Shown: positions 21,532-62,982 of the stretch, in pieces | Numbering within the stretch: position 1 is the first letter of the stretch | Layout: every line of letters begins with the position of its first letter | Assembly: GCA_015654695.1 (NCBI GenBank) | Contig: JAATGJ010000180.1 | Span: 1 to 64,000, forward strand | DNA from: Chitinophagales bacterium | Lineage (GTDB): Bacteria > Bacteroidota > Bacteroidia > Chitinophagales > Chitinophagaceae | Length of the DNA stretch: 64,000 nucleotides | Direction: 5' to 3' | Translations under genes and position numbers: made by a program | Notes under the pieces: generated by a model | The model's input: only the letters and a program-made list of their open reading frames with translations | Databases searched by the model: none | What the model was told of the DNA's origin: nothing

Positions 21532-21975
21532 TTAGTAATCATCGTTATCATCACCATCAAGGTCATCCCCCCCGTCAAACAGATCCTTGAACTCATCATC
21601 CACTTTAAAATCATCTTCTTCCTCAACGCCTTTTTTACCTGCAGGGCCAACAGCTTTTTTCCCTTTTGATTTGGGCACGTCGAATTCTTCGAAGTCAGGA
21701 TCCCATTCTTCCTCTTCTTCTACTTTATCCCATTCATCTACTGTGTCTTCTCCTGCATCATCATCATCGTCGTCATCTTTTCCTTTTTTTGCAGTAGCCC
21801 CTTTGGCTCCTTTTTTAGGAGCCGCTACTTCTGTCTCATCATCGTCAAGATCATCGTCATCATCTTCCTCCTCCTTTTTCTTAGGTTTGGGGGATGCTTT
21901 TTTTGCAGATTCTTTTTCGGATGAATCACCGGCTGTTCCAGCAGACTTTTTTTCTTTACCAGGTTTTGATGCCAT
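21532..21975 (-). CDS. Lysine/aspartate-rich acidic low-complexity protein
   Basis: The 147-residue protein is built of alternating Lys/Ala/Gly-rich and Asp/Glu-rich blocks, with a conserved-looking core EWDPDFEEFDVPKSKGKK and an acidic end FKVDDEFKDLFDGGDD. It is probably disordered and cytoplasmic, since there is no signal peptide. The charge pattern recalls the C-terminus of RNA polymerase delta-like or chaperone-like proteins, but I recognise no family. The complement strand is also open because of GAT/GAA repeats; that serine-rich shadow is not a gene. It precedes pabB and follows purA on the same strand. Confidence 0.8.
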   Translation of the reverse strand: MASKPGKEKKSAGTAGDSSEKESAKKASPKPKKKEEEDDDDDLDDDETEVAAPKKGAKGATAKKGKDDDDDDDAGEDTVDEWDKVEEEEEWDPDFEEFDVPKSKGKKAVGPAGKKGVEEEDDFKVDDEFKDLFDGGDDLDGDDNDDY

Positions 21976-35774: not shown

Positions 35775-36425
35775 ATGAACAGAAAGAATTTTTTATACAA
35801 CGATCCGATAGCTAGCGGATGGAGAGCTGATGACGAAGAGGAAGAAGAAAAAGAAGAGCAGCCTAAATCCGACCTCATGATGTTCAGCAAAAAGCTGGAA
35901 AAATATTTTTTTGAGACCCGCAGTGTTTATCTCTGGGGAGTAGTGGATGACAAAAGTGCTAAGGATATAGTAAGTAAACTATTGTTGCTGGATGCAGACA
36001 AGCCCGGAGAAGAGATCAAATTTTATATCAATAGCCCCGGCGGTGTAGTTACCAGCGGCATGGTGATGTATGATACCATGCAGATGATAAAAAGCCCGGT
36101 AAGTACTATTTGCATGGGTCTTGCCGCTTCGATGGGAAGTATCTTATTAAGCGGAGGGAAAAAAGGTAAACGATTCATCTATCCAAGCGGCGAAGTGATG
36201 ATCCATCAACCCTCTTTGGGCGGCTTTATACGCGGCGTGAGTACCGACCTGGAAATACAGGCCAAACAAACCAAACGGGTAAAAGATCTTGGCGCTAAGA
36301 TACTGGCTGACAACTGTGGCAAAACGGTAGAACAGATATTAAGAGACTTTGACCGGGACTACTGGATGGATGCCAAAGAAGCTATTGCTTATGGCATTGT
36401 TGACAAGTTGATAGACAAGCTTTAA
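35775..36425 (+). CDS. clpP: ATP-dependent Clp protease proteolytic subunit, copy 2
   Basis: The protein has 216 residues from ATG 35775 (MNRKNFLYNDPI); an in-frame TTG at 35739 is less likely. The triad is conserved: Ser in GLAASMGSILL, His in VMIHQPSLGG, Asp in DFDRDYWMDAKEA. A striking acidic stretch DDEEEEEKEEQ lies in the N-terminal 30 residues, where axial-loop/propeptide residues would be. Two divergent adjacent paralogues suggest a mixed ClpP1-ClpP2 tetradecamer, as known in Mycobacterium and Listeria. The mixed ring is inference. Confidence 0.92.
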   Translation: MNRKNFLYNDPIASGWRADDEEEEEKEEQPKSDLMMFSKKLEKYFFETRSVYLWGVVDDKSAKDIVSKLLLLDADKPGEEIKFYINSPGGVVTSGMVMYDTMQMIKSPVSTICMGLAASMGSILLSGGKKGKRFIYPSGEVMIHQPSLGGFIRGVSTDLEIQAKQTKRVKDLGAKILADNCGKTVEQILRDFDRDYWMDAKEAIAYGIVDKLIDKL

Positions 36426-39355: not shown

Positions 39356-40492
39356 TTATCTTTTAAGCTTATATATATCTTTCAGATCTTTTTCAAATAA
39401 TGTATAAGGATCATTATAGAATTTTATAAAATCCGCTTCACTCACTTGCCCGGGAAAAGGGGCATAATAATGTGTCGGGCTTCTTGCATCATTGCGCCAC
39501 ACCAATACATAACACAATTGCATACTGTCTGACCGGAGGGCTTTCAGCAATGTTTCTGTCCACCATGTTGTATTGGGTATTGATTCCAAACCTGTTTCAG
39601 TAAAAGCCGCCAGTTTACCTGCTTTCTTTGCATAATCAGAAACGATCTTTAATTTTTTTATGCCTGCCCCCAGGTTATACTTTCCATCGCGGCCAAAATC
39701 CCCATAGTTATCCATACCCACCATATCTACCCATTCGTCACCGGGATAGCGTTCTAAAAACGCCGCTTCCGTATTAAATCTATTATCCGGAGAAAATGCA
39801 TAGATGAAATTATGAACACCCAAACTATCCCTCAGGAAAGAAACGGTAAACCGCCAGAGCGATTTAAATTCATCCACCGTACAATGCGCCCTTCCCCACC
39901 AAAACCAGTCGCCATCAAACTCATGATAAGGACGGAATATCACCGGAACCAATTTGCCATCATTCCCTTTTATTGAGTTTGCCAGGTCAGCAACTGTGCG
40001 AAGGATCGTTTTGTATTTTTCATGATGCGAGCCACCCGGAATAATATATTTCACAGCAGCCGAAGCAGTAGAATCATTCCAATAAAAATTGGTTTTAGAA
40101 ACGGGATTATTAAAATGCCAGGCTATTGTGGTCACGCCTCCCCTGTTATACGTTTCAGCAATGTTCTTCCTTAATGCACCCTTTTCTTTTTCTATCATAG
40201 AATCCGGTATTCCTGACAGACCACTGAAGTCAACACCAATCACAGCGGGATGCGAGCCTGTTACCGATTTTACATCGCTTCTGTCCGGGTCGCCATACCA
40301 TCCATGGCCATATTGAGTAGCGTGCTGGTGACCGAAGAGTATCTGCTTTCCTGATAGTTTACCCAGGTTATAATATAAAGCCTTCGTCTCGTTAGTAGCA
40401 TTGGCGTCAATGATCGTATTCTTTCCTTTTTGAGAAAAAGATAGCATTGAAAATAATGTCAGCGATACAAGGACCGATAAATACTTTTTCAT
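39356..40492 (-). CDS. GH26 beta-mannanase (second copy)
   Basis: The 378-residue secreted enzyme (signal peptide to about residue 20) hydrolyses beta-1,4-mannosyl linkages. GH26 signatures are LFGHQHATQYG, TIAWHFNNP, and FRPYHEFDGDWFWWG with acid/base Glu191. EWVDMVGMDNYGD and FTETGLES with nucleophile Glu299 complete the set. It shares the plan of the GH26 at 57178-58341 but is clearly divergent in sequence (for instance FDGDW versus LNGSW after the acid/base). Different cell locations or product profiles are therefore likely. It is tightly packed between the esterase (9 bases) and GH5 (7 bases). Confidence 0.92.
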   Translation of the reverse strand: MKKYLSVLVSLTLFSMLSFSQKGKNTIIDANATNETKALYYNLGKLSGKQILFGHQHATQYGHGWYGDPDRSDVKSVTGSHPAVIGVDFSGLSGIPDSMIEKEKGALRKNIAETYNRGGVTTIAWHFNNPVSKTNFYWNDSTASAAVKYIIPGGSHHEKYKTILRTVADLANSIKGNDGKLVPVIFRPYHEFDGDWFWWGRAHCTVDEFKSLWRFTVSFLRDSLGVHNFIYAFSPDNRFNTEAAFLERYPGDEWVDMVGMDNYGDFGRDGKYNLGAGIKKLKIVSDYAKKAGKLAAFTETGLESIPNTTWWTETLLKALRSDSMQLCYVLVWRNDARSPTHYYAPFPGQVSEADFIKFYNDPYTLFEKDLKDIYKLKR

Positions 40493-46430: not shown

Positions 46431-47447
46431 TTAACTCTTCAGTATTTTTTCAATTCCACTTAATTCATCTGTTGAAAATTCCAGGTTATTCAAACAAGCC
46501 AGGTTATCATCTAACTGTGCTACCGAACTGGCGCCAATCAATACAGTTGTAATACGTTTATCCTTGAGCAACCAGGCCAATGCCATTTGGGCCAATGATT
46601 GGTTACGCTGTTTTGCTATTTCATTCAATCGCTTTATCTGTTGTAATCTTTCTTCCGTTATCTCTGAAACTTTTAAAAAACCGTGAGATTTGGCGGCTCT
46701 TGAATTTTCAGGTATCCCTTTCAAATATTTGTTTGTTAACATTCCCTGCGCCAATGGCGAAAAAGGGATACAGCCAACACCGTATTCTTCCAGCACATCC
46801 AGTAAATTCTTATCACCAGGTGAAGTGATCTCTTCCACCCATCTTTCAAACATGGAATATTTTGGCTGATGAATCAGGCAGGGCGTTCCCAGTTGTTTTA
46901 AAATTTCAATCGCCTTTTTCGCTTCCGGCGCTTTGTAGTTGGAAATGCCTGCATATAAAGCCCGGCCGCTTCTTACCGCTGTATCCAGTGCCATCATCGT
47001 TTCTTCTAATGGCGTATCGGGATCGGGACGGTGAGAATAAAAAATATCCACATACTCCAGTTGCATCCGCTTCAGGCTCTGATCAAGGCTTGATAGCAAA
47101 TATTTACGGGATCCCCATTCACCATAAGGACCGGGCCACATATAATAACCCGCTTTGGAGGAAATGATCAGCTCATCGCGAAGATGGCCGGTGAAGTCCT
47201 GTTTGAGTATTTTTCCAAAATTTTCTTCTGCGCTGCCCGGGGCGGGGCCATAATTATTGGCGAGATCGAAATGAGTGATGCCACGGTCAAATGCACGGCG
47301 TATAATACTACGGCCATTTTCAAAATCATCTACCGAACCGAAATTGTGCCAGAGCCCCAGCGAAACAGCGGGGAGCAATACGCCACTCTTGCCACAACGA
47401 TTATAGAGCATGCTGGTATACCTGTCTTCTGAAGGAGTGTAAATCAT
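46431..47447 (-). CDS. Aldo/keto reductase (YghZ/GpR-like)
   Basis: The 338-residue NADPH-dependent reductase has the group-specific start MIYTPSEDRYTSMLYNRCGK. The tetrad is visible as FDLANNYGP (Asp and Tyr), IISSKAGYYMWPGPYGEWGS (Lys) and DIFYSHRPDPDTPLEE (His). The inserted WPGPYGEWGSRKY loop is characteristic of L-glyceraldehyde-3-phosphate reductases and potassium-channel beta-like AKRs. LIGASSVAQLDDNLAC is the cofactor-binding end. It is cytoplasmic. Its role in the PUL may be aldehyde or keto-sugar reduction, but it may also be a passenger. Confidence 0.9.
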   Translation of the reverse strand: MIYTPSEDRYTSMLYNRCGKSGVLLPAVSLGLWHNFGSVDDFENGRSIIRRAFDRGITHFDLANNYGPAPGSAEENFGKILKQDFTGHLRDELIISSKAGYYMWPGPYGEWGSRKYLLSSLDQSLKRMQLEYVDIFYSHRPDPDTPLEETMMALDTAVRSGRALYAGISNYKAPEAKKAIEILKQLGTPCLIHQPKYSMFERWVEEITSPGDKNLLDVLEEYGVGCIPFSPLAQGMLTNKYLKGIPENSRAAKSHGFLKVSEITEERLQQIKRLNEIAKQRNQSLAQMALAWLLKDKRITTVLIGASSVAQLDDNLACLNNLEFSTDELSGIEKILKS

Positions 47448-47505: not shown

Positions 47506-48654
47506 TTACCACTTCATCCGTTTCTTAATAAATGCAGTTAATTCACCCGCAATTAATTGGTGCTCTGCCAGATCAGGATGATGGTCACAACCATTATGAA
47601 ATTGCTTTGAAAAAAAATAACTGGTTATCTTTTTATCACCATTCTTATTCCTATTTCTTACTATGGCTGTTAATGTCTTTTTCATAAAAGCGGCTAACGT
47701 GGAATCGGCCATGGGTCTGGTTAAACAAAGAAGTGGCGCGTTGGGAGAAGACCCTCTGAGTGGTTTGAGATAAGCGATCTAGTTATTGCTGAAAGTGGTT
47801 GAATCCTGTATGCCGTCATTTTGTCCTAACCACATCGTAACTACATCCGGTTGGTATTGATGAAAATCCCCGGCGATGGTATCATTGCGCATACTGATCT
47901 TGTCAAACACCGGCGGCATGATAATATTCATATTGCAGCAACTGTGCATAAGCCCGATACCGGATACAGCTGATAAGTGATATTGCGCATTTAAAGCCCT
48001 TGCTGTAACAACACCATAACTCATATAAGCATTATGCTGATCCTGCCATACGCCTGTGCCGCAGGGAATAACAGTAGCATCGCTGCCTGTGCCGCAGGTG
48101 ATGGAGTTTCCGATGAATTCAATTTTCCTGGTAAGGGGATTTGAAAGCGGCAATAAATTCCCGCTGCATTGTAATCCTATAAATTCCAAATATCCGATAT
48201 TGGCTTCCGTGTTCTTTACAAAGGAAACATTGTGAATGGCAACCTTTGATGATAAATAAGGAGTAACATTTATTGTATCGGTTGCAGATTTTGTTTGCAA
48301 ACGATATGCTTTTCCATCAACTACCAGTTGATAGTAATTATGATTCTTGCCCCACAGCACTTCATCATTAATAATCAACCTGCAATCAGCTCCTGTGAAC
48401 CGAATAGAGATTGTGACACCCGGTTGCCAGAAGCGGGGTAGTTTCGGATTACTGAAATCAATGCGGCCCATGTATTGAATAAAAGAATTGTCAGCAGGAA
48501 AGAATTGTAGCGAGACTCTTCTTTGCGCATTTAGTGGTTTACCCCAAAAGAGGACAACCAGCATAATGCTGAATAGAATTACCAAACGCTGAATAGTGCG
48601 ACGCAACGAAAGCTGATAGCAGTAATGCAGCCAGGCCATAAATAATTTTATCAC
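47506..48654 (-). pseudogene. SGNH/CE2-type carbohydrate esterase, interrupted by one in-frame TAG
   Basis: A single frame of 382 codons is split by TAG at 47779-47781. The first 291 codons encode a signal segment (ILFSIMLVVLFWGKPLNA), a beta-sandwich domain and the SGNH core: FIGNSITCGTGSD (nucleophile Ser) and MWLGQNDGIQD (oxyanion Asn). After TAG the same frame continues for 90 codons (IAYLKPLRGSSPNA...) to CDHHPDLAEHQLIAGELTAF, which supplies the catalytic Asp/His block. Without readthrough the product lacks its Asp-His dyad and should be inactive. The family comprises acetylxylan/mannan esterases (CE2). The GTG start overlaps the GH3 stop. An ATG at 48639 is an alternative start. Confidence 0.85.
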
Positions 48655-50891
48655 TTATACGTAAACTTTGCTTTCTTACTACCGATTATGATTTCAAACT
48701 CCCCGGGCTCCGTAACAGTTTTTAATTGCGCGTTGACAAATGCAAGATCATTTTTATCAATAGTGAATGTCACTTTCTTCATTTCCCCGGCTTTGAGGCT
48801 GATCTTTTGAAAAGCTCTTAATCTTTTCATAGATGGAGTAATACTTGCATACAGGTCACGGGAATATAACTCCACTGTATGCTTGCCATCACGGCTGCCA
48901 ATATTTTTTACGGTAATACTTACAGTAAGTTTCGCAGTTCCTGTCAGCGTTGTATTGCTCAGCTGAAGATCGCCGTATTCAAACGTAGTGTAACTCAATC
49001 CGTGTCCAAACGCATAGAGCGGATCATAACCTGTACTGATATTATCATTGAACACTTCTCTTACTTCTTCCGTGGGTTTCCTGTCATACATGACAACCTC
49101 ACCCGTGCTGCGGGGATAACTGAATGGCAATAAGCCATCGGGATTATAATCACCGAACAGCACATCAGCTATAGCCTCAGCGGTTTTCTTTCCGCTCCAG
49201 TAAGCCATCAGTATGCCTTTCATCGCCGGTTCGATACTCGTGATGAAACGTGGCCTTCCTTCCGTCAATACCTATATCACAGGTTTGCCTGTAGCAGCAG
49301 CGGCTTTGGCCAATGCAAGCTGTTCATCCGGTAAAGCCAGTTCGCGGGTATTGCCGGGGCTTTCAGCATAAGCGTTTTCTCCAAGACACAAAACAATGAC
49401 ATCAGCGCCGGCAGCGGCAGTTGTTAATTTAGCTGCATCATAATTCACAGGATCATCAAATCCTTTTACTGTTGTGGTAGTTACATTCCCTGCGCCCACT
49501 TTATCTGTAATAGTTTGTAAAATAGTTTTACTGTCAGCAGGATACCATTGTTCATCCTTTCCCTGCCAGGTATAACTCCAGCAACCGTTTAATGCACTGA
49601 TGCTTTGTGCCGAGGGGCCCGCTACCAATACTTTTGTATTCTTTGATAAAGGCAAAGCATTATCCTTGTTCTTCAATAATGTCATGGCTTCATGCGCCGC
49701 ATTCAATGCCAGTGTTTGATATTCCGATTTACCGAAATTAGCTTTTGCAGCGGCCTCCGGGTATGGATTATCAAATAAACCGAGTTTGTATTTCAATACT
49801 AATATTCTTTTTACTGCATCATCAATACGGCTCATGGGTACTTCCTTCAATTTCACCGCTTCTACCAGCAAATCATAAAAAGAAAAATCAGATGGCACCA
49901 TGCTCATATCTATACCTGCATTGACAGCCATTACTACAGCCTGCCTGGGAGTAGAGGCTACATTATGCCTGTCATGCAGCCGTTTAATATCTTCCCAGTC
50001 GGTGACGATCACACCCTGGAATCCCAATTCTTTTCTTAATACATCTGTCAGCAAATACTTATCAGCATGAACCGGGATACCATTTATTTCACCGGAATTG
50101 ATCATGATACTAGATGATCCCGCTTTTACCGCTTCGCGGAATTGCGGCAGGTAATATTCACGCAATTCTATTTCCGGTATATAGGCGGGTGTCCTGTCTT
50201 TACCGGTTCTAGGTCCCGAATACGCGAGATAATGCTTCATACAACTGGCTACCGCAGTCAGGCTTTTCAGACCATCTTCTTCATACGCTTTTATGACAGC
50301 GGCGCCCATTGTTTTACCAATATAAACATCTTCGCCATAGGTTTCAGGAAACCGGGACCACAATGGCTGGCGGCCAATATCCAATACCGGTGCAAAATTC
50401 CAGCGAACACCCGATGCCCTTAGTTCTTTGGCAGTTGTTTTAGCAGCCATGATTGCCAGCTCAGGGTTTCTTGAGGCAGCAATACCAATATTTTGCGGAA
50501 ACAAAGTTGAATTGAGCGTATAAGTTTGCCCGTGCATTCCGTCAAGACCATAAATAACAGGAATTTTCTGTTTGGTATTTTTTGTTTCATCCTGTATCTG
50601 TGTGATAATGTTATGCCATTTATCAACAGTAAATGCATGAGCATTTACATTAAGTACAGAACCAACATGGTAATCAACCACGGCTTTTTTTAATGCGGCC
50701 GGGTCAATATTACCTTCCGTGTCGGCCCAGCCTCCTTTTGCAATGACTGCAATCGTCACCTGTGTCATTTGTCCTACTTTTTCTTCGAGGGTCATCTTTT
50801 TGAGAAGGGCATCCGCTTTTTGCTGATCCGTTTGTGCCGTTAACTGAACAGTATAACTGATAACCACGGACAGGAGGAGGAGTTTTTTCAT
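48651..50891 (-). pseudogene. GH3 beta-glycosidase (beta-glucosidase/mannosidase type), interrupted by one in-frame TAG
   Basis: A single frame of 746 codons from ATG 50891 is split by TAG at 49272-49274. The 539-codon N-part has a signal peptide (LLLLSVVISYTVQLTAQ), the GH3 barrel with GLDGMHGQTY and CMKHYLAYS, and the nucleophile Asp298 in GVIVTDWEDIKRLHD. It then enters the second alpha/beta domain, DVIVLCLGENAYAESPG. The frame breaks exactly in GKPVI-TAG-VLTEGRPRFI, where relatives have a hydrophobic residue (GKPVILVL). It resumes unchanged for 206 codons, including FSYPRSTGEV, YAFGHGLSYTTFEY and a fibronectin-like C-terminal domain. Unless TAG is read through or is an assembly error, the product is truncated and inactive. 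Confidence 0.88.
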
Positions 50892-51003
50892 AATAGCTGT
50901 ATTGAATCGTTGATTGATGGTGATTTGCAATTCTATTGGATGTACACAGTTTTCATTATCAAAAATACCGGGATAAAGAAAAGCTTTTGTATGTGTTTAT
51001 TAA

Positions 51004-52755
51004 TTATTTTTTATCAACTGCCATTATTATTGCGCCCCATGCAGGCACTGTTACCCGTATGCCATTGGCGGTAACCGCTGAACGGGCTTTAAGTGTGCTG
51101 TAATTTTCAGGACCGCCTGCAACCAAAGACGGGCCATTTCCATTCACCAGTACTTTCCTGGAAAACTCACCATTGTCATTACTTCCTTCCAGATTGTACC
51201 AGTAAAAACGGTTGCCCTTATAGAAATTTTTCATTTTCACTTCTACATTCGCCGGCGTTGCTGAAGCATTCACCAATGTGACATTTACCTGCCCGGAAGA
51301 GTAAGTGGATGAATAGGCTTTAATAGCAGCGCTGCCGGTTACCGTATTATTTACCAACCTGTCGCCTAACATTTTTTGAAAATAATACATATAATAAAAG
51401 CTTGGTCTTGGCGTCCATTTGCTGATTCCCGGCTCATCTCCAGGACTGAAAAGTCCGTGGTCATTCCCGTTTGACCACCCGTTCAGCAAATCCCAGCGGG
51501 CAGCCATACCATACTTATTTTTTAATGCCTCTCCCATTACCAATACAGCAAAAACCCCGCTGACGTTGGACACCTGTTGTTTTGAATCTTTCGCCCACAT
51601 ATTCCATTCATCCATCGCAATGGGTTTTACCGTAGCGCCATTTGCCTGCAAAGTCTGGGTTACATAATTGATCATCGTGCCGGGAACAGATAAAGCTGAT
51701 GACAAAACCACGGAAGCATTTGAGTTCTGATCGTACGGGGTAAAATAATTATGCACTACGTAAAAATCAGCTTTATTGTTGATGCCTGTCATCATACCTG
51801 TATTCCATGTTTTGATTGTGTTGGTTTGCCAGGGTTCAGGGGTAGGCCCCTCTACCGTAACCGCTCCAATATTAATTTGTTTACCGATTTCTGTTGCTGC
51901 TTTTTTCATTGAATCTGCAAATACTTTAAAATGCTGTGCATATAAAGCGCCGGTTAAAAATTCGGGCTGCCCATCCTGGTTTAAAGATGGGTCAATGCGA
52001 TAACCCCATTCCCAATTACCATAGTTCTCGTTACCAATTTCCCATAATTGAGTGCGGCCATTATCGTAGCGCACCCAGTCAGCGGCAAGATGGGCTGCGG
52101 CTGCCACAGGGTTGGCACTTGTTCCATACCTTGCATAACCATAATTGATGGTAATAATTCCCTTATTATTGGTTTGCTGCAACATTGTGTAATAATTATC
52201 TAATGAGCATTGCCAGTTATAATTTGTTCTGCCATAATTATATCCCGGTTCTTTCTTAATACCATTCTCATCGGTTATCATAGCGGGTGCGTCCGGCGGA
52301 TTAACCCCCTGTTGTGCATTCCAAAAATATACATCGCTGCTACTGCCGCCCGGAAAACGGATGATATGCGGATGCAGGTTAGTAACAGGATCTATAAACT
52401 TTGGGTCACCGGCTACCGGGCCCATCCACCAAACCGCATTATGGCCGAATTCAGATAGTGGTATTTTGGTAATGATAGAGGTAGCATCAACGGTTACAGT
52501 AATTCCTGCACTTGCAGGGATGTCTGCAGCATCATAAGCAGGTGGCATAAATGGTTTCGCTTGCCAGTCATCTAAAAAAAATCCGATAGTATTTGCGATA
52601 GGGGGATCTACACCTGGTACAATCGTTGTATCTCCGGGTACGGGAGGAGGCGGTGGCGGAGCGGGTGGTATTTCGCCACCATTATTTTTTTTACAACTTA
52701 AAGCAATAGTAATTACCAATAACCCTGCAAAACATTTTATTACAATATTTTTCAT
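51004..52755 (-). CDS. Clan GH-A glycoside hydrolase lipoprotein (GH51/GH30-like)
   Basis: The 583-residue protein has a lipoprotein leader ending ALSC (Cys21), followed by a proline-rich spacer (PPAPPPPPPVPG), which lifts the enzyme off the membrane. The barrel shows LWEIGNENYGNWEW with acid/base Glu243 in the Asn-Glu pair, and AMDEWNMWAKD with nucleophile Glu383. HPHIIRFPGGSSSDVYFW resembles the N-terminal strand of alpha-L-arabinofuranosidases. A C-terminal beta-sandwich covers about residues 490-583. GH51-like arabinofuranosidase is one option. An exo-acting beta-mannosidase or glucanase of a neighbouring GH-A family is another. The position after the phosphorylase/epimerase pair suggests trimming of mannan oligosaccharides or side chains. 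Confidence 0.75.
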   Translation of the reverse strand: MKNIVIKCFAGLLVITIALSCKKNNGGEIPPAPPPPPPVPGDTTIVPGVDPPIANTIGFFLDDWQAKPFMPPAYDAADIPASAGITVTVDATSIITKIPLSEFGHNAVWWMGPVAGDPKFIDPVTNLHPHIIRFPGGSSSDVYFWNAQQGVNPPDAPAMITDENGIKKEPGYNYGRTNYNWQCSLDNYYTMLQQTNNKGIITINYGYARYGTSANPVAAAAHLAADWVRYDNGRTQLWEIGNENYGNWEWGYRIDPSLNQDGQPEFLTGALYAQHFKVFADSMKKAATEIGKQINIGAVTVEGPTPEPWQTNTIKTWNTGMMTGINNKADFYVVHNYFTPYDQNSNASVVLSSALSVPGTMINYVTQTLQANGATVKPIAMDEWNMWAKDSKQQVSNVSGVFAVLVMGEALKNKYGMAARWDLLNGWSNGNDHGLFSPGDEPGISKWTPRPSFYYMYYFQKMLGDRLVNNTVTGSAAIKAYSSTYSSGQVNVTLVNASATPANVEVKMKNFYKGNRFYWYNLEGSNDNGEFSRKVLVNGNGPSLVAGGPENYSTLKARSAVTANGIRVTVPAWGAIIMAVDKK

Positions 52756-52773: not shown

Positions 52774-53973
52774 TTAAACGCGATTATAAATTTCCATACA
52801 GGCCCTGGCATTATGATAAGGACATTTCCAAAAACCGGCTTTTTCTTTCTGCATCAAAGAATAATCGGCATGAACACCCCAGAACCATTCTCCCTTGTTA
52901 TTATCTTTTATATATTTCTTTACAAATTCCCAGCTATTGAGGGAGTAATGTAAATATTTTTCGTTCCCTGTCAACTGGTAAGTATTCAAAAAACCAATCA
53001 TCGCTTCCGCCTGCGGCCATGAATGTTTTTCTTTTATCAAATGATCTTTGCCAGGATCGTACTCATACCAGAGGCCACCGTCGTTGTCTAATCCTTCCGC
53101 AGCCGCGTCAGCGATCCTGGTACTTAGTTCTTTGAAACGGCTTATGTAATTTGCATTCCCCGACACTTCAGCACATTGTAATAAAAGCCATGCTGCTTCA
53201 ATATCATGGCCATAAGAAACCAGCGATGATTTTACATTCCAGTACTCATCCATAAATAAATGAAGGTGATAAGTATGCGGATCTATAAAGTTTTGCTCAA
53301 AAACATCCAGCAGGTGTTTGATGCTTTCCAGCAGCTTTTTATCCGGCCAGGCGGAATACAGGTTGGCATACGCTTCAATAATATGCAAATGTGTATTCAT
53401 GGTCTTTTTTTCATTATCATCCTTTTCACTCAGCCGGAGATCGTCTATCAGTTTCCATCCCTGTGTGAAAGCTTCGAGATAGCCTCCGTTCTTTTTATCG
53501 AAACTATTTTTTTCAATATGATCAAAAAGATCTTTTGCCAGGTGCAGCGCAATTTTTTCACCTGACCCTTTATAATACTCTGTCAACCCATAGATGCAAA
53601 ACGCAAGACCGTATATTTGTTTTCTTCCATCCAGCATTGTTCCTTTGCTGTCCACCGACCAGTAAACGCCGCCATATCGCCGGTCAATAAAATGATCCAC
53701 GATATATTTATACGCTCTTGAAGCAACGGCAAGATAGGATGGTTGCTTATCCCTGGTATAGGCCGCCGAAAATGTCCACAGAATGCGGCTGGTCATTACT
53801 ACGCCTTTTGGGGCAGCGGGGTTAGCTATATTATCATTATCAAGACTGGCTAAAAAACCGCCGTTCTTATCATCCATTGTATTCTTCATCCAGAAATCCA
53901 GGATGGAAGACAGTTCACCGGATAATTCCCGGCTATATGCAGCGACAACAGGAGTAGTATCAGTTGCAGTCAT
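52774..53973 (-). CDS. AGE-family 2-epimerase (cellobiose/mannobiose 2-epimerase)
   Basis: The 399-residue alpha6/alpha6-barrel cytoplasmic enzyme epimerises the reducing-end sugar at C2. Key segments are SRILWTFSAAY, GGVYWSVDSKG, MNTHLHIIEAYANLY and YGHDIEAAWLL. EKHSWPQAEAMIGF and FWKCPYHNARACMEI complete the set. The conserved His residues match the catalytic ones of cellobiose 2-epimerase. It starts exactly where the GH130 phosphorylase ends. In Bacteroides fragilis the same pair converts beta-1,4-mannobiose to mannosyl-glucose and then phosphorolyses it. Mannobiose is therefore the inferred substrate. Confidence 0.93.
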   Translation of the reverse strand: MTATDTTPVVAAYSRELSGELSSILDFWMKNTMDDKNGGFLASLDNDNIANPAAPKGVVMTSRILWTFSAAYTRDKQPSYLAVASRAYKYIVDHFIDRRYGGVYWSVDSKGTMLDGRKQIYGLAFCIYGLTEYYKGSGEKIALHLAKDLFDHIEKNSFDKKNGGYLEAFTQGWKLIDDLRLSEKDDNEKKTMNTHLHIIEAYANLYSAWPDKKLLESIKHLLDVFEQNFIDPHTYHLHLFMDEYWNVKSSLVSYGHDIEAAWLLLQCAEVSGNANYISRFKELSTRIADAAAEGLDNDGGLWYEYDPGKDHLIKEKHSWPQAEAMIGFLNTYQLTGNEKYLHYSLNSWEFVKKYIKDNNKGEWFWGVHADYSLMQKEKAGFWKCPYHNARACMEIYNRV

Positions 53974-55194
53974 TTATTTTGATTGCTTATTGGCAGGTGA
54001 TGAAAGTATTGCCTGCAATAATGTATCAGACTGGTTTTTCTCAATGACCTGGTTCAGGGTCCTGACAGTCTCTGCTGAACTAAAACCATCCGCAGGAGTA
54101 TTCATTACATAATCCACTAACTGATCAACGGTTGAAGTAGCTACATGTAACCGTGTATCTGAAGATGCATAATATATATATACAAAGCCATTATCGTCCA
54201 GTATCCACCCATTGCTGAATAACACATTGGATACATCGCCAATTCTTTCGTCGCCTTCCGGCGCCATGAAATAGCCGGCAGGTTTATAGGTTACTTTAGT
54301 AACATCGTGCAGATCGGTCATGAACATATATAATACATAACGTAAACCTGCAGCCGTATTTCTTACCCCATGAGCCAGGTGAAGCCAGCCATGCTTTGTT
54401 TTAAGGGGTGCGGGTCCCAGGCCATTCTTGGCTTCATATACAGTATGATATTCTTTCGGATCAATGACGATCTCCTTATCTATTACCGCATTTTCCATAG
54501 AATTACTTAATCCAAAACCGATACCACCACCACTGCCTGCATTGATGAAACCATCCTGCGGCCTTGTATAGAAAGCATATTTACCATCTACAAATTCAGG
54601 ATGCAACACTACATTTCGCTGCTGGGGCGAAGGAGTAACGAGATCAGGCAACCGTTCCCATTGTACCATATCTCTTGTACGGGCTATACCACATTGCGCG
54701 ATAGCGGCTGACTGATCAGACGCAGGGGCCTGGGTATCCCTTCGTTCTGTACAAAATAAGCCATATATCCAGCCATCTTCATGCAATACTACCCGCATAT
54801 CGTAAATATTAGTATCAGGGTTACCTGTTTCGGGCATAGTAAGGGGGTAATCCCAGAAACGAAAATTATCAACGCCATTCGGGCTTTCAGCTACGGCAAA
54901 AAAAGATTTGCGGTCTGATGCTTCTACTCTTGCTATCAGCAGGTATTTATCATTCCATTTAATGGCTCCGGCGTTTAACACACCATTGATCCCAAAACGT
55001 TCCATTAATAAAGGATTGGTAGCCTTATTCAAATCATACCTCCAGAATAAAGGTGCATGCTGCGCTGTCAATACAGGATGATGATAGCGGTCAAATATCC
55101 CATTGCCAGTTTCTGCTTTCTGATTGGACTGGCTGAGCAGCAACTCCTGCTTTTTTTCCAATACAGTTAACCGGTTAAAAAAATCTCCGCTCAT
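53974..55194 (-). CDS. GH130 4-O-beta-D-mannosyl-D-glucose phosphorylase
   Basis: The 406-residue cytoplasmic enzyme cleaves mannosyl-glucose with phosphate to alpha-mannose-1-phosphate and glucose. The GH130 five-bladed propeller shows [20 protein letters not shown] and [35 protein letters not shown] has the catalytic Asp132, aligned within one residue of the B. fragilis enzyme's Asp131. [33 protein letters not shown] and [14 protein letters not shown] follow. The length and the C-terminal helix fit the GH130 subfamily 1 group. It lies between the symporter (13 bases) and the epimerase (0 bases) in a compact catabolic operon. Confidence 0.95.
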
Positions 55195-55207: not shown

Positions 55208-57064
55208 TTAATTTTCCAATTTATTCCACCATGTTCTTTTTAATATCAAAACAATTATCACCAGGATAAGTAGTGTTACCAGTAAGGGCAGTTTCATCCA
55301 CAGTACGATATACATAGGCAATAAGGTAAGGCAGCATTGCCCGAGGATACCCAGTACTACATTGAACATATCGAGTTTAAACCGCCTGTTTGGTTCAAAT
55401 GAAGGATCTTCCGCCATTACCAGTTCCTGTACCGGTTTCCAAAAACCCCAGGGTCTTACATTTTTATAAAATGATTTCAGGACATTCATATCTGTTGGTG
55501 GCGAAGCATACGTACCAATAAGACAACCCGCCAGCGATAAAACAAATAATACCGGCCACCAGTACAGGGGCAGGGCTTCCCTGATATAACCTTGCGCAAT
55601 TCCCCATTCGATCGCGTATGGCATTGCCAAAGCGCCGATTATACCCACGGCCATTCCCCAGAAGAATCCATTGGCATTAAAGCGCCACCAATACCATTTA
55701 AAACAATTGGCCGCCACATAGCCGCCGTACAATCCACCGACGATCCATTGTAAAATTTCATTTACATCATTGGCCAGAAAACCGAAGAATATGCCCACCG
55801 CTACCACTACTATACCCACGATATAATTCATCGAAATGACTTTCCTCGTGCTGGCAGCGGGGTTGATATACTTAAGATAAATGTCGTTGATAATATATGC
55901 CTGCGCCGCATTCAATGTTCCGCTGAATGTACCCATGAATGCCCCAAGCAGCCCTGTAAGCACCAGCCCTAATACACCTATTGGTAAAAAAGTATTGATC
56001 GTTGCCGGCAATACCCGTTCAAAATCAGTAACGCCATCCGGGCCTTTCAGGTAAAGCTGGTTATAATATAATAAAGCCAGCACGGTCAACCCGATAATCA
56101 TTGAATAACGGACAGGCAATAAAATAATGCTGACAAATCCTGTCATCTTACTTGCCTCCTTCGGACTGCGTGTACTCAATACTTTTTGCATATCATAGTT
56201 AGGTGCTGGTCCTGCCAGGGAAGCAAACACCCCTTTTAATAACATCATCATAAAAAAAGCGCCGAACAAACTGAATCCGTCAGAGGCGATCTTTTTATTG
56301 GCGTCTGCAGCTATCGCTGTCCAGTCAAGGTTAAGTTTCCAGCTAAAGAACGGATCATTCCAGCCTTTGGGTACATTAAGTGCTTGTCCCTGTAAATGCT
56401 GCATGGCTATTACCGCAATAGCGATACAGGCCACAGTCATGATCATATATTTTATCACATCCCCGGTTACTATACTATGCATACCGCCGATAATGGAATA
56501 AAACATGGCAAACAGCGTGAACACAATACCATAAAAATGAGGTACATATTTTTCTGAAAGGGCGAAGGGTACATATTCTTTTACCACATCCCAGGGAATA
56601 AACACCTGTATAAATTTTCCCAGGCCTACAAAGCCATACGCTAAAAATCCAAGGCAACTGATCAGGGCAAATGCGATAACAATTATATGTGACCCGGTCA
56701 CACCTTGTCCTTTTAATCCAAATCTTGTCTGCAGCCATTCCGCCCCTGTATTAGCATTACTGCGACGTAACCACTTACTCAAAAACATCATCATGAATAC
56801 CTGGTTAAATACAGGCCATAACCAGGGTATCCATATACTTTTTAACCCATACACAAAGCAAAGGGCTACCATCCACATGGTGCCGCTGATATCAAACATA
56901 TCGCTGGCATCGCTTAAACCCAGTTTATACCAGGGCAGGCTTTTACTTCCCAGCAGATAACTCTCCTTATTTACCCTCGCTTTTTTTCTATAGTACCAGC
57001 CTACCAATACCATCGTTATAAGGTATATAAGTACGATACTGATATCTATCGGGCTTAATCTCAT
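55208..57064 (-). CDS. Sodium:solute symporter (SSS family), probable mannobiose importer
   Basis: The 618-residue inner-membrane protein has about 14-15 hydrophobic helices. SSS features are [31 protein letters not shown]-like helix breaks, [19 protein letters not shown] and [20 protein letters not shown]. The last pattern, with its Ser/Thr residues, belongs to the sodium site. Genes of this type sit beside GH130 and the epimerase in the B. fragilis mannan operon, where the symporter is proposed to bring mannobiose into the cytoplasm. It starts 113 bases after the GH26 gene and may have its own transcript. Confidence 0.93.
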
Positions 57065-57177: not shown

Positions 57178-58341
57178 TCATTGATAGAGTTTTTCATCAT
57201 TTACATCTTTTTCAAAAAGCATTTTACCAGACTGATAGAACTTCACAAAATCGGCAACAGTCATGTGGCCTTTATAAGGAACATAATACTCAAACTGGCC
57301 ACCAGGTTTTTGGCCCGCATTCCGCCATCCTAATACATACGATATTTTATGCGCTGAAAGAACTTTCAAAAATGTACCGGTCCACCAGGTACTATCGGAA
57401 AGGTTGCCACCGAATTCTGTCAGCGCCGGAATCTTATTTTTTTCTGTAGCTATATCTTCCAGTGCTGAAAGCATTTTATCTATATCAGCAATAAATTTAT
57501 CATTAGGGCTGTTTCGCTGATAAATATCAAAACCAATTACATCTACCCATTCATCACCCGGATATTTTTGCAGGTATTCTTCCTTTGATGAAAAACGGTC
57601 TGTATTATATGCATATAAAAGATGGTGAAGCTTTTTTTCATTCCGGAGATAATTTACTGTAAACTGCCAGAGTTTTTTGTACTCATCGGGTGTACAGTTT
57701 TTACCGCCCCACCAAAACCAGCTCCCGTTTAATTCATGATAAGGCCGGAAAATAACCGGTATAAATTCGCCGCGGCTTCCTTTCAAACTGTTCATAAAAA
57801 CAGCGATTTTATCAAGCCAGGTTTTGAAAAAATCATGTTTGCCGCCCCCGGGTAAGATGGAAGCAACTGTTCCTTCAGCAGGATCCCATGCTGTTTTTCC
57901 TGTTAGCGGGTTATTGAGATGCCAGCTGATTGTTATCACACCTCCCCTGTCGTAGCCCTGCCGGATCAGTTGTTTCATTTTATCAAAAGGAACAGAATCC
58001 AGGTTGACGGTCTTATCCAGTTCTATATCTCCCAATTCCCACCCATATACTGCAGGATAGTCGCCGGTTACATCTTTGATATCACTTCTTCCTTCCTGGT
58101 ATTTCCATCCAACACCATAAGCCAGGTCATCCTGGTGACCAAACATTATTCCTTTGCTCAATTGCTTTTTTAAATTACGATACAGGTTAACTGTTTCTTT
58201 GGTTGCACTTCTGTCAGAGGGTAACTCCTGTACGCCAACCTGCCTGCGCTGTACAAATGTTTGCACAGTGTTTATATTCATTGCAAAAACAAAAGGAAAA
58301 AGAACTGCTATTTTATTCACATACTTCATCAATAAATACAA
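57178..58341 (-). CDS. GH26 beta-mannanase (first copy)
   Basis: The protein has 387 residues, or 383 if ATG 58329 (MKYVNKIAVLFPF) is used. An N-terminal signal-like segment ends near FAMNINTVQ. GH26 signatures are MFGHQDDLAYGVGW, ITISWHLNNPLTG, and VIFRPYHELNGSWFWWGG with acid/base Glu203. WVDVIGFDIYQRN and PALTEFGGNLSD with nucleophile Glu309 follow. The GH26 ManA of B. fragilis releases mannobiose, which would feed the epimerase/GH130 pair. It lies between the surface glycan-binding genes and the symporter. Confidence 0.93.
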   Translation of the reverse strand: MYLLMKYVNKIAVLFPFVFAMNINTVQTFVQRRQVGVQELPSDRSATKETVNLYRNLKKQLSKGIMFGHQDDLAYGVGWKYQEGRSDIKDVTGDYPAVYGWELGDIELDKTVNLDSVPFDKMKQLIRQGYDRGGVITISWHLNNPLTGKTAWDPAEGTVASILPGGGKHDFFKTWLDKIAVFMNSLKGSRGEFIPVIFRPYHELNGSWFWWGGKNCTPDEYKKLWQFTVNYLRNEKKLHHLLYAYNTDRFSSKEEYLQKYPGDEWVDVIGFDIYQRNSPNDKFIADIDKMLSALEDIATEKNKIPALTEFGGNLSDSTWWTGTFLKVLSAHKISYVLGWRNAGQKPGGQFEYYVPYKGHMTVADFVKFYQSGKMLFEKDVNDEKLYQ

Positions 58342-58487: not shown

Positions 58488-60047
58488 TTAATAAATGCCG
58501 AGGTTATCTACATAAATGGTAAAATCTACAGCACCGGCACCGTTATATTTTTTTATATATAAAAATCCTAATGTAGACACAGAAGAGATTTGACTTAAAG
58601 GAATCGTAAAATTGGTCCATTGACCTTCAACAATAGCTATTGTTTTACCATCCGTCTCATTAAATCCTATGTTTACGTTTTGACCACTGCTGCCGGCACC
58701 CCCATAAATAGCAACTTTCAAAGATGTATATCCCCCCAAAGGAATATTAGCGCCGCCTAATTGCAGCGGAACACCCCAATCGCCAACGTAACTAATCCTG
58801 CATGATTTAGAACCGGATTGCACAGGTGATGTATTATCTAAATCTTTTGTTCCGCCCCATCCACCGCCAATCCAACCATTCCACGCAGAAGTAATAGCAT
58901 CATCATAAAGTATTATTGGCGGAACAGAGGAACCAACAATTGCCAGGTCATTAGCGGACTTAACAGAAAGGGTAGAATTTTTCACATTCAACGTAAGCTT
59001 GCCGGTTACTGAACCTGCAGGCACTGCTACAACAAGCTGTGTTGCTGATTGACTGACAAAGGTGGTAACTGCAATTGGTACGCCTATAAATGCCGCAGAA
59101 GACACTAAATCAAGATTGGTACCGGTAATGGTAAGATTAGCTAATGGATCAACCGGGTTTGGTGTCATAGCAGTAATAGCAGGTAATACTACATCTAAAT
59201 CTGCTGTTGATACAGTCTGTACTCCCGATGCTGCTTCCAGTGTTACTTTACCTTTTGTTGTGCTTGCCGGTACTTTAACTACAAGTTGCGTAGCCGTTTG
59301 ACTAACAAAACTCGTAACGGCAGCCGAAACGCTTGTGAACATTATTTTTTTCACCAGGTCCAGGTTAGTACCTGTAATTGTCAGATCTGTCCCGTGTTTT
59401 GCCGGGTTCGGAGAAAAAGAAGTAGTAACAGGCAAAGTAACTTTTAATGTATCGGTAGTCTGTACTTTATCTGCATCAGTTCCTTCATAAGAAAGAACTA
59501 ACGGACCTGTTTCAGCATCAGCCGGCACTGTAACTACCAGTTGAGTAATTGTTCTGCTGACAAAGGTTGTAACAACCCTATCCCTGGCAAAAGTTACACT
59601 GTTTACCCAATTGAGATAATTACCGGCAATAGTAATGTTCTCACCGGGCCGGGCTTGTGCTGTAATAGACGTAACTGTACTTGCCACATTCAAGTTCAGG
59701 TGTGTCTTTGTCACGATATCACCATCCGGGGTTTTCAATGTGACAAAACCTTTCTCTGCGGCCGCCGGAACAATCAGCAGGATAAGTTCTGATGTGTGAG
59801 TCTTGAAATCCGCTTTCTCAATTGTTGCCGCTGCAGTACCTGTAAACTGGATAGCTGTAACCTTGTTAAGATTATTGCCAAAAAAACGCAGCGTATCACC
59901 GTGCTTTGCACCGGTAGGGCCAAAGCTTAGCAATACTACTTTGCCGGAATTTACATTATTATTGTCCTTATTACAGGAACTTATCACGCCGATTGACAAT
60001 ATAAAGCATGTGAATGCTATCAATGGGCTGTTAGATGTTTTAATCAT
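58488..60047 (-). CDS. IPT/TIG-repeat lipoprotein with C-terminal glycan-binding domain
   Basis: The 519-residue surface lipoprotein has a leader ending VISSC. Four IPT/TIG immunoglobulin-like domains follow (about residues 35-115, 118-205, 206-285 and 288-370). Each has the pattern TPNP-x-TDLTITGTNLDLV and FVSQTATQLVVKVPA. Residues 375-519 form a jelly-roll resembling CBM-type domains: WNGWIGGGWGGTKDLDNTSP and FTIPLSQISSVSTLGFLYIK. This is the layout of SusE/SusF-position surface glycan-binding proteins. It would capture mannan for the SusCD pair. The repeats are diverged at the DNA level. Confidence 0.88.
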   Translation of the reverse strand: MIKTSNSPLIAFTCFILSIGVISSCNKDNNNVNSGKVVLLSFGPTGAKHGDTLRFFGNNLNKVTAIQFTGTAAATIEKADFKTHTSELILLIVPAAAEKGFVTLKTPDGDIVTKTHLNLNVASTVTSITAQARPGENITIAGNYLNWVNSVTFARDRVVTTFVSRTITQLVVTVPADAETGPLVLSYEGTDADKVQTTDTLKVTLPVTTSFSPNPAKHGTDLTITGTNLDLVKKIMFTSVSAAVTSFVSQTATQLVVKVPASTTKGKVTLEAASGVQTVSTADLDVVLPAITAMTPNPVDPLANLTITGTNLDLVSSAAFIGVPIAVTTFVSQSATQLVVAVPAGSVTGKLTLNVKNSTLSVKSANDLAIVGSSVPPIILYDDAITSAWNGWIGGGWGGTKDLDNTSPVQSGSKSCRISYVGDWGVPLQLGGANIPLGGYTSLKVAIYGGAGSSGQNVNIGFNETDGKTIAIVEGQWTNFTIPLSQISSVSTLGFLYIKKYNGAGAVDFTIYVDNLGIY

Positions 60048-60076
60048 CGTTATAGTTTAAATACTTTACGTAATGT

Positions 60077-61231
60077 TTAATCAAGAACCTTTGGAACCAC
60101 CCTGAAATTATCAAAGGCAATGTCTGCATCCCAGTCGCCGGGGGCATGACCTAAAAGTAACCGGGTCCAATAGCCACTAGGATTTACCGTGGGTTTTACC
60201 CTATAGGTTGCAAACACCTCTTCTAATGGAATGACCACAGTTTGCCATTTGCCTTTTGTGTCATAAGGAGGATTCCATTTATATGCATCATTATCTTCAG
60301 CATTCAGGGCAAAATTTATTTTGACCACATTTGTATTGTAAGGTTTGAGTGTATTTACTTCAAACTTCAGATAGTAATCCTCAGGTTTTAAAATTGCCGC
60401 ATCAGGTATGTTTCTGCTGTGAACAGGCATAGCAGATGCAGGACCACCGGCTAATTCATTCCAGCTCCATGAGCCTAGTTGCTTTGTGAAACGAATATAA
60501 TTTCCGCTGATCTTGGGAGGATCGGTGGGTCCGGGAGTACTTACAACATAAGATGAATTCCACCAGCCTTCGTATGGATCACTGTTTAGAAAATGATTCC
60601 TGTCGTCCCTGAACCAGAAGTTGGATTTCGTTTCGCCAAAATTTGTTTTCACGATAACAGGGCCAACTTGTGCGCCCGCAGGTATCCTGACTTCAATCTC
60701 CTGATCTTTTAGCGATACTATTTCACCAACTACACCACCTGTAAATGTAACTGTGAGTGGTGCATAGAAGTAATTACCCCGTATAGTAGCAACCTCACCG
60801 TCATTTACAAATTCAGAAAGCATGTTGTTGACGACGGGTTTACTGATCTGTACCTGGAAATCATACAATAATGTTTTGCCGTTTTTAAAAACAATCTTCA
60901 GTTTGTTGTCAATAGCCAATGGAATTTGGGAAGGAACATTGACAATGATGGTTGTATTGGTAATATACGTAGGATTCAGGTTTGCTTTCTGGTCGTTAAA
61001 CCACATTTCTACAGCCCCGCCTAAATTTTCACCCATAATGGCAATCAGTTTTCCCTGTGCGGCTCCTATTAAAAGAGAGTCGGAAGAAACAGGATTGGTG
61101 ACCCTTACATACGTAATTCTTGGTTCCCCGCCACCACTGGTTGACTCTTTATCCTTATTACAGGATGTGACGATACTTCCCAATACAAATGCCATGGTAA
61201 ATAACAGTATCAGTTTATTTATATTTTTCAT
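60077..61231 (-). CDS. Surface glycan-binding lipoprotein (SGBP-B-like)
   Basis: The 384-residue lipoprotein has a leader ending SIVTSC (Cys24). Two IPT/TIG-like domains (about 38-195; AAQGKLIAIMGENLGGAVEM, EFVNDGEVATIRGNYFYAPL) precede a C-terminal beta-sandwich. That sandwich contains DPYEGWWNSSYVVSTP, LGSWSWNELAGGPAS and IAFDNFRVVPKV. Aromatic-rich ligand platforms like this occur in SGBP proteins downstream of susD in Bacteroidota PULs. It lies 36 bases after susD and 30 before the second IPT lipoprotein, clearly in the same operon. Confidence 0.9.
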   Translation of the reverse strand: MKNINKLILLFTMAFVLGSIVTSCNKDKESTSGGGEPRITYVRVTNPVSSDSLLIGAAQGKLIAIMGENLGGAVEMWFNDQKANLNPTYITNTTIIVNVPSQIPLAIDNKLKIVFKNGKTLLYDFQVQISKPVVNNMLSEFVNDGEVATIRGNYFYAPLTVTFTGGVVGEIVSLKDQEIEVRIPAGAQVGPVIVKTNFGETKSNFWFRDDRNHFLNSDPYEGWWNSSYVVSTPGPTDPPKISGNYIRFTKQLGSWSWNELAGGPASAMPVHSRNIPDAAILKPEDYYLKFEVNTLKPYNTNVVKINFALNAEDNDAYKWNPPYDTKGKWQTVVIPLEEVFATYRVKPTVNPSGYWTRLLLGHAPGDWDADIAFDNFRVVPKVLD

Positions 61232-61266: not shown

Positions 61267-62982
61267 TTATGGAAATTCAACAGCATCCCTGTTTAAGTTT
61301 GGCGCCAAACTGATTTCCGCTGATGGTATAGGCAGGCGGAAGTTGCCGGAGTTAGCGTTAATTTGTCTTTCAGTCGTATGCCAGGTTGTTTTCTTGAAAG
61401 TCCATTCCGTTGGATTGGGGAAAGCATCTGTTCTTATATTATAAAAACCCCTGTCCTGGCTATTGAGGATTTGATAGGCTTTTTGCGGATTGTAATAATG
61501 AAGGCTTACAAAATCGTACCATGCCAGGCTTTCAAACGCAAACTCAAGTATTCTTTCTTTAAATACATGATCAAACGTCAGAGGTGTAGGCGCACCTGAT
61601 ACAGGATCGGTTAATTGGCGTGCTGCCAATCCTGACCGGGTACGTACTTTGTTGTAGTACTCCAATGCAGTAGCGTCTGTGGTAGAAGTATTATTGCCAA
61701 TAACAGCTTCCACATAGATTAAATAAATTTCTGCCAAACGCATCATGTAAGTGTTATTAGGATAAGTTTGTTGCTGCGCCCCGCCTACATCCTCGGATTT
61801 TCCAACCACATATTTTTTGATATAGGCAAAATCGGGATCACTGCCTGTGTTCGGCACAATCAACTTTTGTTTGCCTGCAGGGTTTACAGCTATCGGAACT
61901 GTTTGTGTGATTTCGGGATAGCTGGCGCCTGGGAGCATAAAGGTTGCTTTTAACCGTGTATCAATCGTACGGCCTTTCAGCATGGTATCACCGGAAGCCT
62001 GAATTCCTTCGTATTGTGACAACATCCACCAGCTTGCACTCTTGTCGCCTCCCCAGCCATCACCATTCGCAATGTCGGGACTGAAATTGAGATAAGCGGG
62101 CATACTGTTTTGAACTCCCCATACTCCGGGTTGATACACCCATTGTAATTCGAAAAGGGATTCTTTGTTGTTATCGTAAGGAAACTTAAACAGGTTCTCA
62201 TAGCTTGACAATAATTGAGCGCCGCTACTGTTGATGACTCTTTGTGCGAAATATTTGGCACTATCCAAAAATTCCTGTTTCCTGGCATTTATACCAGTAG
62301 CTTCTACCCCGGCTCTTGTCAAATAAAACCTGGCCAGCATACCTTCTGCAGACCATTTCGTTATCCTGCCCGGTTGAGCAGCAGTTTCGGGAAGATCATT
62401 TGCCACGGCACGCATTTCACGGGTAATAAAACGCCAGATGCTGGGTATTGTGTTTTTCCTGAGCGTTGTATCTTTTAAGTAATCAAGATTATTAGTAATA
62501 ACCGGTACTTCACCCCAGTTCATTACAAGGTAACGGTAAGCCAGGGCTCTCATAAACCTGGCTTCAGCAATGGCCATTTTTTTTACTGATGGACTAACAC
62601 CTGCACCCGCATACGTATTAATGTTGACGATCGCCATATTGGATTGCGCAACAACATTAAAGAAAGCACGCCATGAAGAATTGTTTTCACCGTTTTCAGC
62701 AGTGGTATTAAACAATACATTGCCCCTGTCATTCCATGCAGAATATGCCGTTCCTGCCCTGAAATCCCCAAGATTGTAATAGGCCTTGTCATTATAATCA
62801 AACCAGACACGGTTGTATAAGGATGCTGTACCGGCCAATACCTGCTCGTCTGTTTTATAAAAGTTGGCGTCAACGATAGCGTCCGTTGGGGGCTTTTCCA
62901 AAAAATTTTTCTTACAACTTGCAAGAATCATGATTGGAATAACCAGTCCAACCAAATATTTTGTATAATGTATTTTATTCAT
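61267..62982 (-). CDS. SusD/RagB family nutrient-binding outer-membrane lipoprotein
   Basis: The 571-residue protein has leader LVIPIMILASC (Cys23), followed by KKNFLEKPPTDAIVDANFYK, the classic SusD N-terminus. TPR-like helices carry MAIAEARFMRALAYRYLVMN and GRITKWSAEGMLARFYL. The C-terminal EILEFAFESLAWYDFVSL-type segment reads FKERILEFAFESLAWYDFVS. It forms the lid of the SusCD transporter and binds mannan oligosaccharides by context. It starts 11 bases after the SusC stop. Confidence 0.96.
   Translation of the reverse strand: MNKIHYTKYLVGLVIPIMILASCKKNFLEKPPTDAIVDANFYKTDEQVLAGTASLYNRVWFDYNDKAYYNLGDFRAGTAYSAWNDRGNVLFNTTAENGENNSSWRAFFNVVAQSNMAIVNINTYAGAGVSPSVKKMAIAEARFMRALAYRYLVMNWGEVPVITNNLDYLKDTTLRKNTIPSIWRFITREMRAVANDLPETAAQPGRITKWSAEGMLARFYLTRAGVEATGINARKQEFLDSAKYFAQRVINSSGAQLLSSYENLFKFPYDNNKESLFELQWVYQPGVWGVQNSMPAYLNFSPDIANGDGWGGDKSASWWMLSQYEGIQASGDTMLKGRTIDTRLKATFMLPGASYPEITQTVPIAVNPAGKQKLIVPNTGSDPDFAYIKKYVVGKSEDVGGAQQQTYPNNTYMMRLAEIYLIYVEAVIGNNTSTTDATALEYYNKVRTRSGLAARQLTDPVSGAPTPLTFDHVFKERILEFAFESLAWYDFVSLHYYNPQKAYQILNSQDRGFYNIRTDAFPNPTEWTFKKTTWHTTERQINANSGNFRLPIPSAEISLAPNLNRDAVEFP

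Follow-up and report, generated by a model that had tools for sequence, protein, structure and literature searches.

Single in-frame TAG codons in adjacent esterase and GH3 genes of a Chitinophagales bacterium: assembly error and recent nonsense mutation as likelier readings than amber suppression

What does it mean when two genes that lie side by side are each cut by one in-frame TAG? In the 64,000-nucleotide stretch of Chitinophagales DNA analysed here (the window), a GH3 beta-glucosidase-like gene and an esterase gene are found in this state (Table 1). An earlier note on this DNA argued that two adjacent lesions of one kind are unlikely to arise independently by chance. As explanations it proposed either shared relaxation of selection after the first hit or amber suppression specific to these genes. 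A further reading is that the stops may be errors of the assembly itself, whose 187 contigs probably represent a metagenome bin.

Both interruptions are present as first described. Around the stop at 47779-47781 the minus strand reads ...DSTTFSNN-TAG-IAYLKPLRG...CDHHPDLAEH..., which confirms that the SGNH/CE2 esterase is cut between FSNN and IAYLKPL; its likely start is an ATG five codons inside the frame. When the stop is read through, the frame matches CE2_N (PF17996, 7.2e-22, 78.0 bits against a cut-off of 27.9) and Lipase_GDSL_2 (PF13472, 2.6e-08, 35.0 bits against 32.9), and can thus be assigned to the CE2-type SGNH acetylesterases. The score against the NCBIfam equivalog AxeC2 (101 bits, below the cut-off of 500) makes the esterase a distant relative only.

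Tyrosine stands at the interrupted site in 12 of 12 relatives in an alignment of 13 esterases, and in all 86 filtered homologous hits from the fetched loci that span the stop. These 86 hits, like the 22 for GH3 given below, are not independent genomes, since some loci duplicate each other. The site is encoded by TAT in 40 and TAC in 18 of 58 relatives, and TAG is one base change away.

A product ending at this stop would keep the serine of GNSITCG, which lies upstream, and would lose H359, which lies 3' of the TAG and is invariant (13 of 13 aligned esterases). We take both to be catalytic residues of the family. The loss of an Asp-His dyad (CDHHPD) had been claimed; this stands for the histidine but is not quite right for the aspartate, which is not invariant: position 357 is Asp in eight of the 13 esterases and Gly in the other five. 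The locus had also been described as otherwise intact. This is true of the scanned neighbouring frames, but not of the esterase, which has been altered, always within 30 residues of the stop, at four more of the columns that at least 90% of 58 homologues conserve.

The adjacent gene does bear a like lesion, at 49272-49274. Its read-through frame contains GH3 N, GH3 C and Fn3-like domains (PF00933 1.7e-71, PF01915 8.9e-43 and PF14310 8.6e-19, all over cut-off), and PF01915 (404-635) spans the TAG. Leucine occupies the site in ten of ten relatives and in 21 of 22 filtered hits, the remaining one having alanine. The commonest codons are CTG, TTG and CTT, with TTG in the sister genome G006 (L173); TAG is therefore a single base change only if the ancestral codon was TTG.

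Table 1. Features of the locus and other genes with supported in-frame stops. Positions are those of the window unless a handle (L) is given.
Feature	Position	Strand	Remarks
Second GH26	39356..40492	-	PF02156 4.7e-53
Aldo/keto reductase, intact, downstream neighbour	46431..47447	-	PF00248 6.3e-70
CE2-type SGNH acetylesterase frame, TAG-broken	47506..48654	-	382 codons
In-frame TAG, codon 292 of the CE2/SGNH esterase frame	47779..47781	-	Tyr in relatives
GH3 beta-glucosidase-like gene, TAG-broken, directly upstream of esterase	48651..50894	-	
In-frame TAG, codon 541 of the GH3 frame as translated	49272..49274	-	Leu in relatives
583-aa protein, no Pfam match	51004..52755	-	Homologues in 12 fetched relatives, at least 45% identity
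GlcNAc 2-epimerase family protein	52774..53973	-	PF07221 6.1e-44
GH130 beta-1,4-mannooligosaccharide phosphorylase	53974..55194	-	PF04041 1.7e-19
Sodium:solute symporter	55208..57064	-	PF00474 6.2e-25
GH26 beta-mannanase-like	57178..58341	-	PF02156 5.9e-53
Two TIG/IPT-domain proteins, second with surface glycan-binding domain	58488..61231	-	PF01833, PF18329
SusD-like protein	61267..62982	-	PF07980 2.9e-28
COX1, TAG	L123 1343		PF00115 45-522 spans residue 454
TonB receptor, TAA	L081 7704		
C92 peptidase, TAA	L094 5410		
Acyltransferase, TAA	L124 3850		
Mutator transposase, TGA	L077 5938		

By its gene content the surrounding locus is a beta-mannan utilisation locus, and the GlcNAc 2-epimerase family protein is, by context, probably a mannobiose 2-epimerase. 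If the lesions are real, the locus is one that is losing its deacetylase and glucosidase steps. In the 583-residue protein private changes number 39 over 226 conserved columns, where nine relatives have 0 to 13. This marks a divergent copy that may have been replaced or be a paralogue.

How far the pair stands out can be judged by how frequent in-frame stops are in this genome. Stops spanned by a Pfam domain or a homologue were sought in 1,775,017 of 5,422,596 bases, the window included, by combining a phase-aware Markov model with Pfam spans and homology. Seven were supported, three TAG, three TAA and one TGA; these counts are lower bounds from a design that favours TAG, since 62 TAA or TGA candidates with a nearby ATG were left unscanned. 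Random single-base changes would be expected to give shares of 0.32-0.38 for TAG, 0.40-0.47 for TAA and 0.21-0.22 for TGA. The search for other TAG-split genes that the earlier note had called for thus yielded one beyond the pair, COX1, together with the three TAA cases and the one TGA case. Further Pfam scans yielded nothing more than an HmuY frame (L283, TGA), which was ambiguous and was excluded from the count. The TAA frame break at position 21532 of the window does not count as a split gene, since PF00425 falls entirely on one side of it.

The reach of this search can be given for each step. Of 300 planted stops, 234 passed the model and the length filter, a figure that precedes shadow filtering and the Pfam step. 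The Pfam step of the first sample (91 candidates) scanned 13 of 15 TAG candidates (two of them the pair itself), 19 of the 28 TAA or TGA candidates with the next ATG 12 codons or more away, and none of the 48 with a nearer one. For the second sample (34 candidates) the corresponding numbers were 7 of 7, 12 of 13 and 0 of 14. Codon-usage scoring proved too weak, selecting no candidate and missing both known cases. When every stop-flanked frame was put through tblastn, shadow frames dominated the raw output, which was therefore filtered. Twelve filtered homology rows resulted for this genome, five of them supported (CE2, GH3, COX1, the TonB receptor and the acyltransferase). The other seven, all TAA (L128, L140, L141 twice, L151, and window positions 36339 and 39398), were set aside as a group as weak matches, gene ends or shadow frames. 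The same filter gave four raw rows, three TAA and one TGA, before the Pfam step in 276,443 bases of the sister genome G003.

A separate survey used homologues only and covered 60,026 codons at 50% identity or more. It found three supported internal stops, all TAG, and no frameshift. Window stops at 9492, 36544 and 36568 were judged in this survey to belong to a shadow frame and to sequence preceding a gene start.

Scaled to the whole genome, the seven cases correspond to about 21 lesions, uncorrected for misses. When 23 lesions were placed by simulation among an assumed 4,600 genes, the probability of at least one adjacent pair was about 0.11, and it ran from 0.04 to 0.29 over 15 to 40 lesions. 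The pair had moreover been selected by a reader seeking oddities. With seven supported stops of all three types in 1.78 Mb and a probability of this size, the pair is unremarkable as a coincidence, and the argument from improbability is not supported at the rate seen in a third of the genome. These are single in-frame stops of an ordinary kind. Like-looking stops in neighbouring genes invite a story of recoding, and caution is in order where the background holds all three stop types.

One member of that background bears on how such stops originate. In COX1 (CtaD-like; L123 893-2704, contig C51, minus strand), TAG replaces an invariant Trp and is the sole private difference at columns invariant in 11 relatives, none of the 382 other such columns being changed. 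This is the genome's only full-length COX1 hit, the other being a distant partial one on contig C17 that is probably cbb3-like. No internal stop was found in the full-length orthologues of 27 other genomes with a match. Two distant partial hits (G002 and G006) do contain a stop, and a search of 198 genomes (179 with a match) gave no other among the matches listed. A stop in a core gene that is otherwise unchanged at 382 invariant columns points to a base-level assembly error, since a miscall is more probable than that the cell has lost a core subunit of its oxidase. The COX1 case suggests that part of the in-frame-stop background is assembly error.

The esterase TAG may have arisen in the same way. 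There is about an even chance that it is a base-level error of the draft assembly, or a minor variant taken into the consensus, that results from locally poor read support. It would then be a single-base change of a Tyr codon in which the base is presumably miscalled, and the stops at the Leu codon of GH3 and the Trp codon of COX1 would have the same kind of origin. Were the esterase TAG real in the cell, it would act as an ordinary stop. A sequencing error, which the earlier note raised only as a point to check, is no less probable than a true pseudogene. Cooley and Wright (2024, PMC11017572) describe how low coverage creates spurious internal stops in assemblies, how low read quality raises internal stops more than frameshifts, and how the rate of spurious stops depends on coverage and assembler.

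Evidence for error can be found in the pattern of changes. Over the columns that at least 90% of 58 esterase homologues conserve, the esterase has five changes (residues 262, 292, 295, 303 and 313), and these all fall within 52 residues (262-313; P = 0.006 by permutation). All five are transversions, whereas 76 of 124 private nucleotide changes in six genes are transitions (P about 0.009). Together with the absence of frameshifts from the homologue survey, this cluster points to assembly error. Several observations argue the other way. Both tests are post hoc, and four of the 12 private nucleotide changes in the esterase are transitions. Comparable clustering also occurs in a symporter gene that is intact, where it takes in 11 of 96 invariant positions within 150 nt (esterase: 6 of 45), and one of 58 other esterases has an equal cluster at the protein level. 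Seven stops in 1.78 Mb is not obviously a high rate, and all the broken genes but COX1 have the accessory look expected of true pseudogenes. The same GH3 gene, finally, has been lost by deletion in a sister genome.

Real young nonsense mutations are nearly as likely as error. In the fuller version of this alternative both stops are real and very recent: GH3 would have been hit first, the esterase would have lost its translation or its usefulness, and a second hit would have followed. This course of events is a serious possibility, a little short of an even chance. In 11 of the 13 loci where both genes occur (12 if the frameshifted L173 is counted), GH3 and CE2 share a strand and stand no more than 100 nt apart. 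Such linkage, together with the loss of the same GH3 in a sister genome, makes the earlier idea of shared relaxation plausible. In that sister genome, G006, a 40-nt deletion shifts the frame of GH3 (L173 563-2760), so that loss of this gene does occur in the genus if the deletion is not itself an assembly fault. That deletion lies about 115 nt upstream of the TAG position seen here, and the first of the two resulting frames ends in a GTGA overlap with the second.

Apart from COX1, the remaining supported stops fit the same alternative, the affected genes coding for a TonB receptor, a peptidase, an acyltransferase and a transposase. One internal TAG each is also carried by two CE2 homologues (L206 4043 and L242 1342), both from other metagenome-assembled genomes. 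They are among 80 public loci kept of 584; of the 80, 46 come from metagenome-assembled genomes and 34 from others, and six other flagged stops in homologues sit close to where the alignment begins. Among 298 genomes searched within the order, 27, this one included, gave an esterase match, and one other match has internal stops (two TAA).

As to signs of decay, the esterase has private changes at 7 of 106 conserved columns, against 1 to 9 in ten relatives, and these are clustered near the stop at strongly conserved columns. A relative-rate count gives the esterase 14 changes in this lineage and 8 in the nearest relative, but the intact aldo/keto reductase matches this small excess with 11 against 6. 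No decay is seen in GH3, which has private changes at 4 of 354 conserved columns (1 to 22 in ten relatives), no excess upstream or downstream of its stop, and a relative-rate count of 22 against 44. The absence of frameshifts in the surveyed codons also tells against real nonsense mutations, and the COX1 stop is hard to explain by them.

A third explanation is amber suppression or programmed readthrough, by which TAG would be decoded as an amino acid and full-length proteins would be made. It can draw on the frames, which remain open and conserved past both TAGs, and on the homologue survey, in which all three supported stops were TAG. The chance of the latter under the expected shares is about 0.03-0.055, which is weak evidence and is offset by the TAA- and TGA-split genes. 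Other observations make this explanation very improbable. No tRNA with a CUA anticodon, the suppressor whose search the earlier note had suggested, was found among 53 genome-wide Rfam tRNA hits, for which 150 of 272 first-look candidates were scored. The 53 include one pseudo-tRNA, one tRNA-Pro read by eye and one partial at a contig end without an anticodon call. ARAGORN at default stringency, run on the tRNA loci and the sampled stretches, gave no CTA, TTA or TCA anticodon. With a lowered threshold two weak CTA places appeared (L143, and L028/L041, which are one place) among hundreds of weak calls; they were discounted as suppressors, neither being among the Rfam hits, and the TTA and TCA calls at this stringency were taken as no evidence. 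A small doubt attaches to the tRNA set, as contig gaps or the unscored candidates may hide further tRNA genes.

Two tRNA loci deserve description in their own right. Between tRNA-Thr and tRNA-Tyr lies a tRNA-like pseudogene (L050 3234-3303) whose 3' half, judged by eye, matches the adjacent tRNA-Thr. It was rejected as a suppressor, as its six-base anticodon loop lacks CTA and its acceptor stem, also judged by eye, is broken. On contig C120, about 19 tRNA genes (18 called by ARAGORN and one Pro by eye) are packed into 1.76 kb (L039 8945-10702). This cluster, which has an RNase H-like gene next to it and an RtcB RNA ligase gene about 5 kb away, looks like a mobile tRNA array.

Termination at TAG, by contrast with what suppression would need, appears normal. 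RF1 is present (prfA, 498 bits against a cut-off of 423), as is RF2 (435 bits against 370). Among 590 long open reading frames in the first 1.375 Mb sampled, TAG closes 108 (18%, a few TAG-split genes being counted within them), TAA 338 and TGA 144. A similar share is seen in 0.276 Mb of the sister G003, where TAG closes 23 of 127. The residues replaced at the three TAG sites are Tyr in CE2, Leu in GH3 and Trp in COX1, not one amino acid, and the stops are missing from the compared relatives, so that no conserved readthrough site is seen. With RF1 present, no CUA tRNA found in these searches, TAG serving as an ordinary terminator and different residues replaced, suppression or reassignment is not supported, and the proposal of amber suppression specific to these genes is set aside. 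Inefficient UAG readthrough by an ordinary near-cognate tRNA despite RF1, giving low levels of full-length esterase, GH3 protein and COX1, is a similarly far-fetched prospect.

Several known systems can be compared with the pair. In-frame TAG codons in open frames are a feature of TAG recoding in Crassvirales phages and of amber suppression systems, and the same is seen here. Unlike in those systems, TAG is in normal terminal use here, RF1 is present and the tRNA searches found no suppressor; a search of viral contigs found no relative.

The closer likeness is to the nonsense pseudogenes of draft genomes, whether spurious or true, as PMC11017572 presents them: a single internal stop in an otherwise open and conserved frame. 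The stops described here differ in being known from the assembled sequence.

The gene content also has published counterparts. The beta-mannan loci of Bacteroides cellulosilyticus (PMC13276840), Muricauda (PMC9860051) and Roseburia intestinalis (PMC6385246) combine GH26 and GH130 with epimerase, GH3 or acetylesterase genes, as does this locus, and those of R. intestinalis contain two GH3 genes and a CE2. Unlike in these loci as there described, the GH3 and CE2 frames of the locus analysed here are interrupted by TAG.
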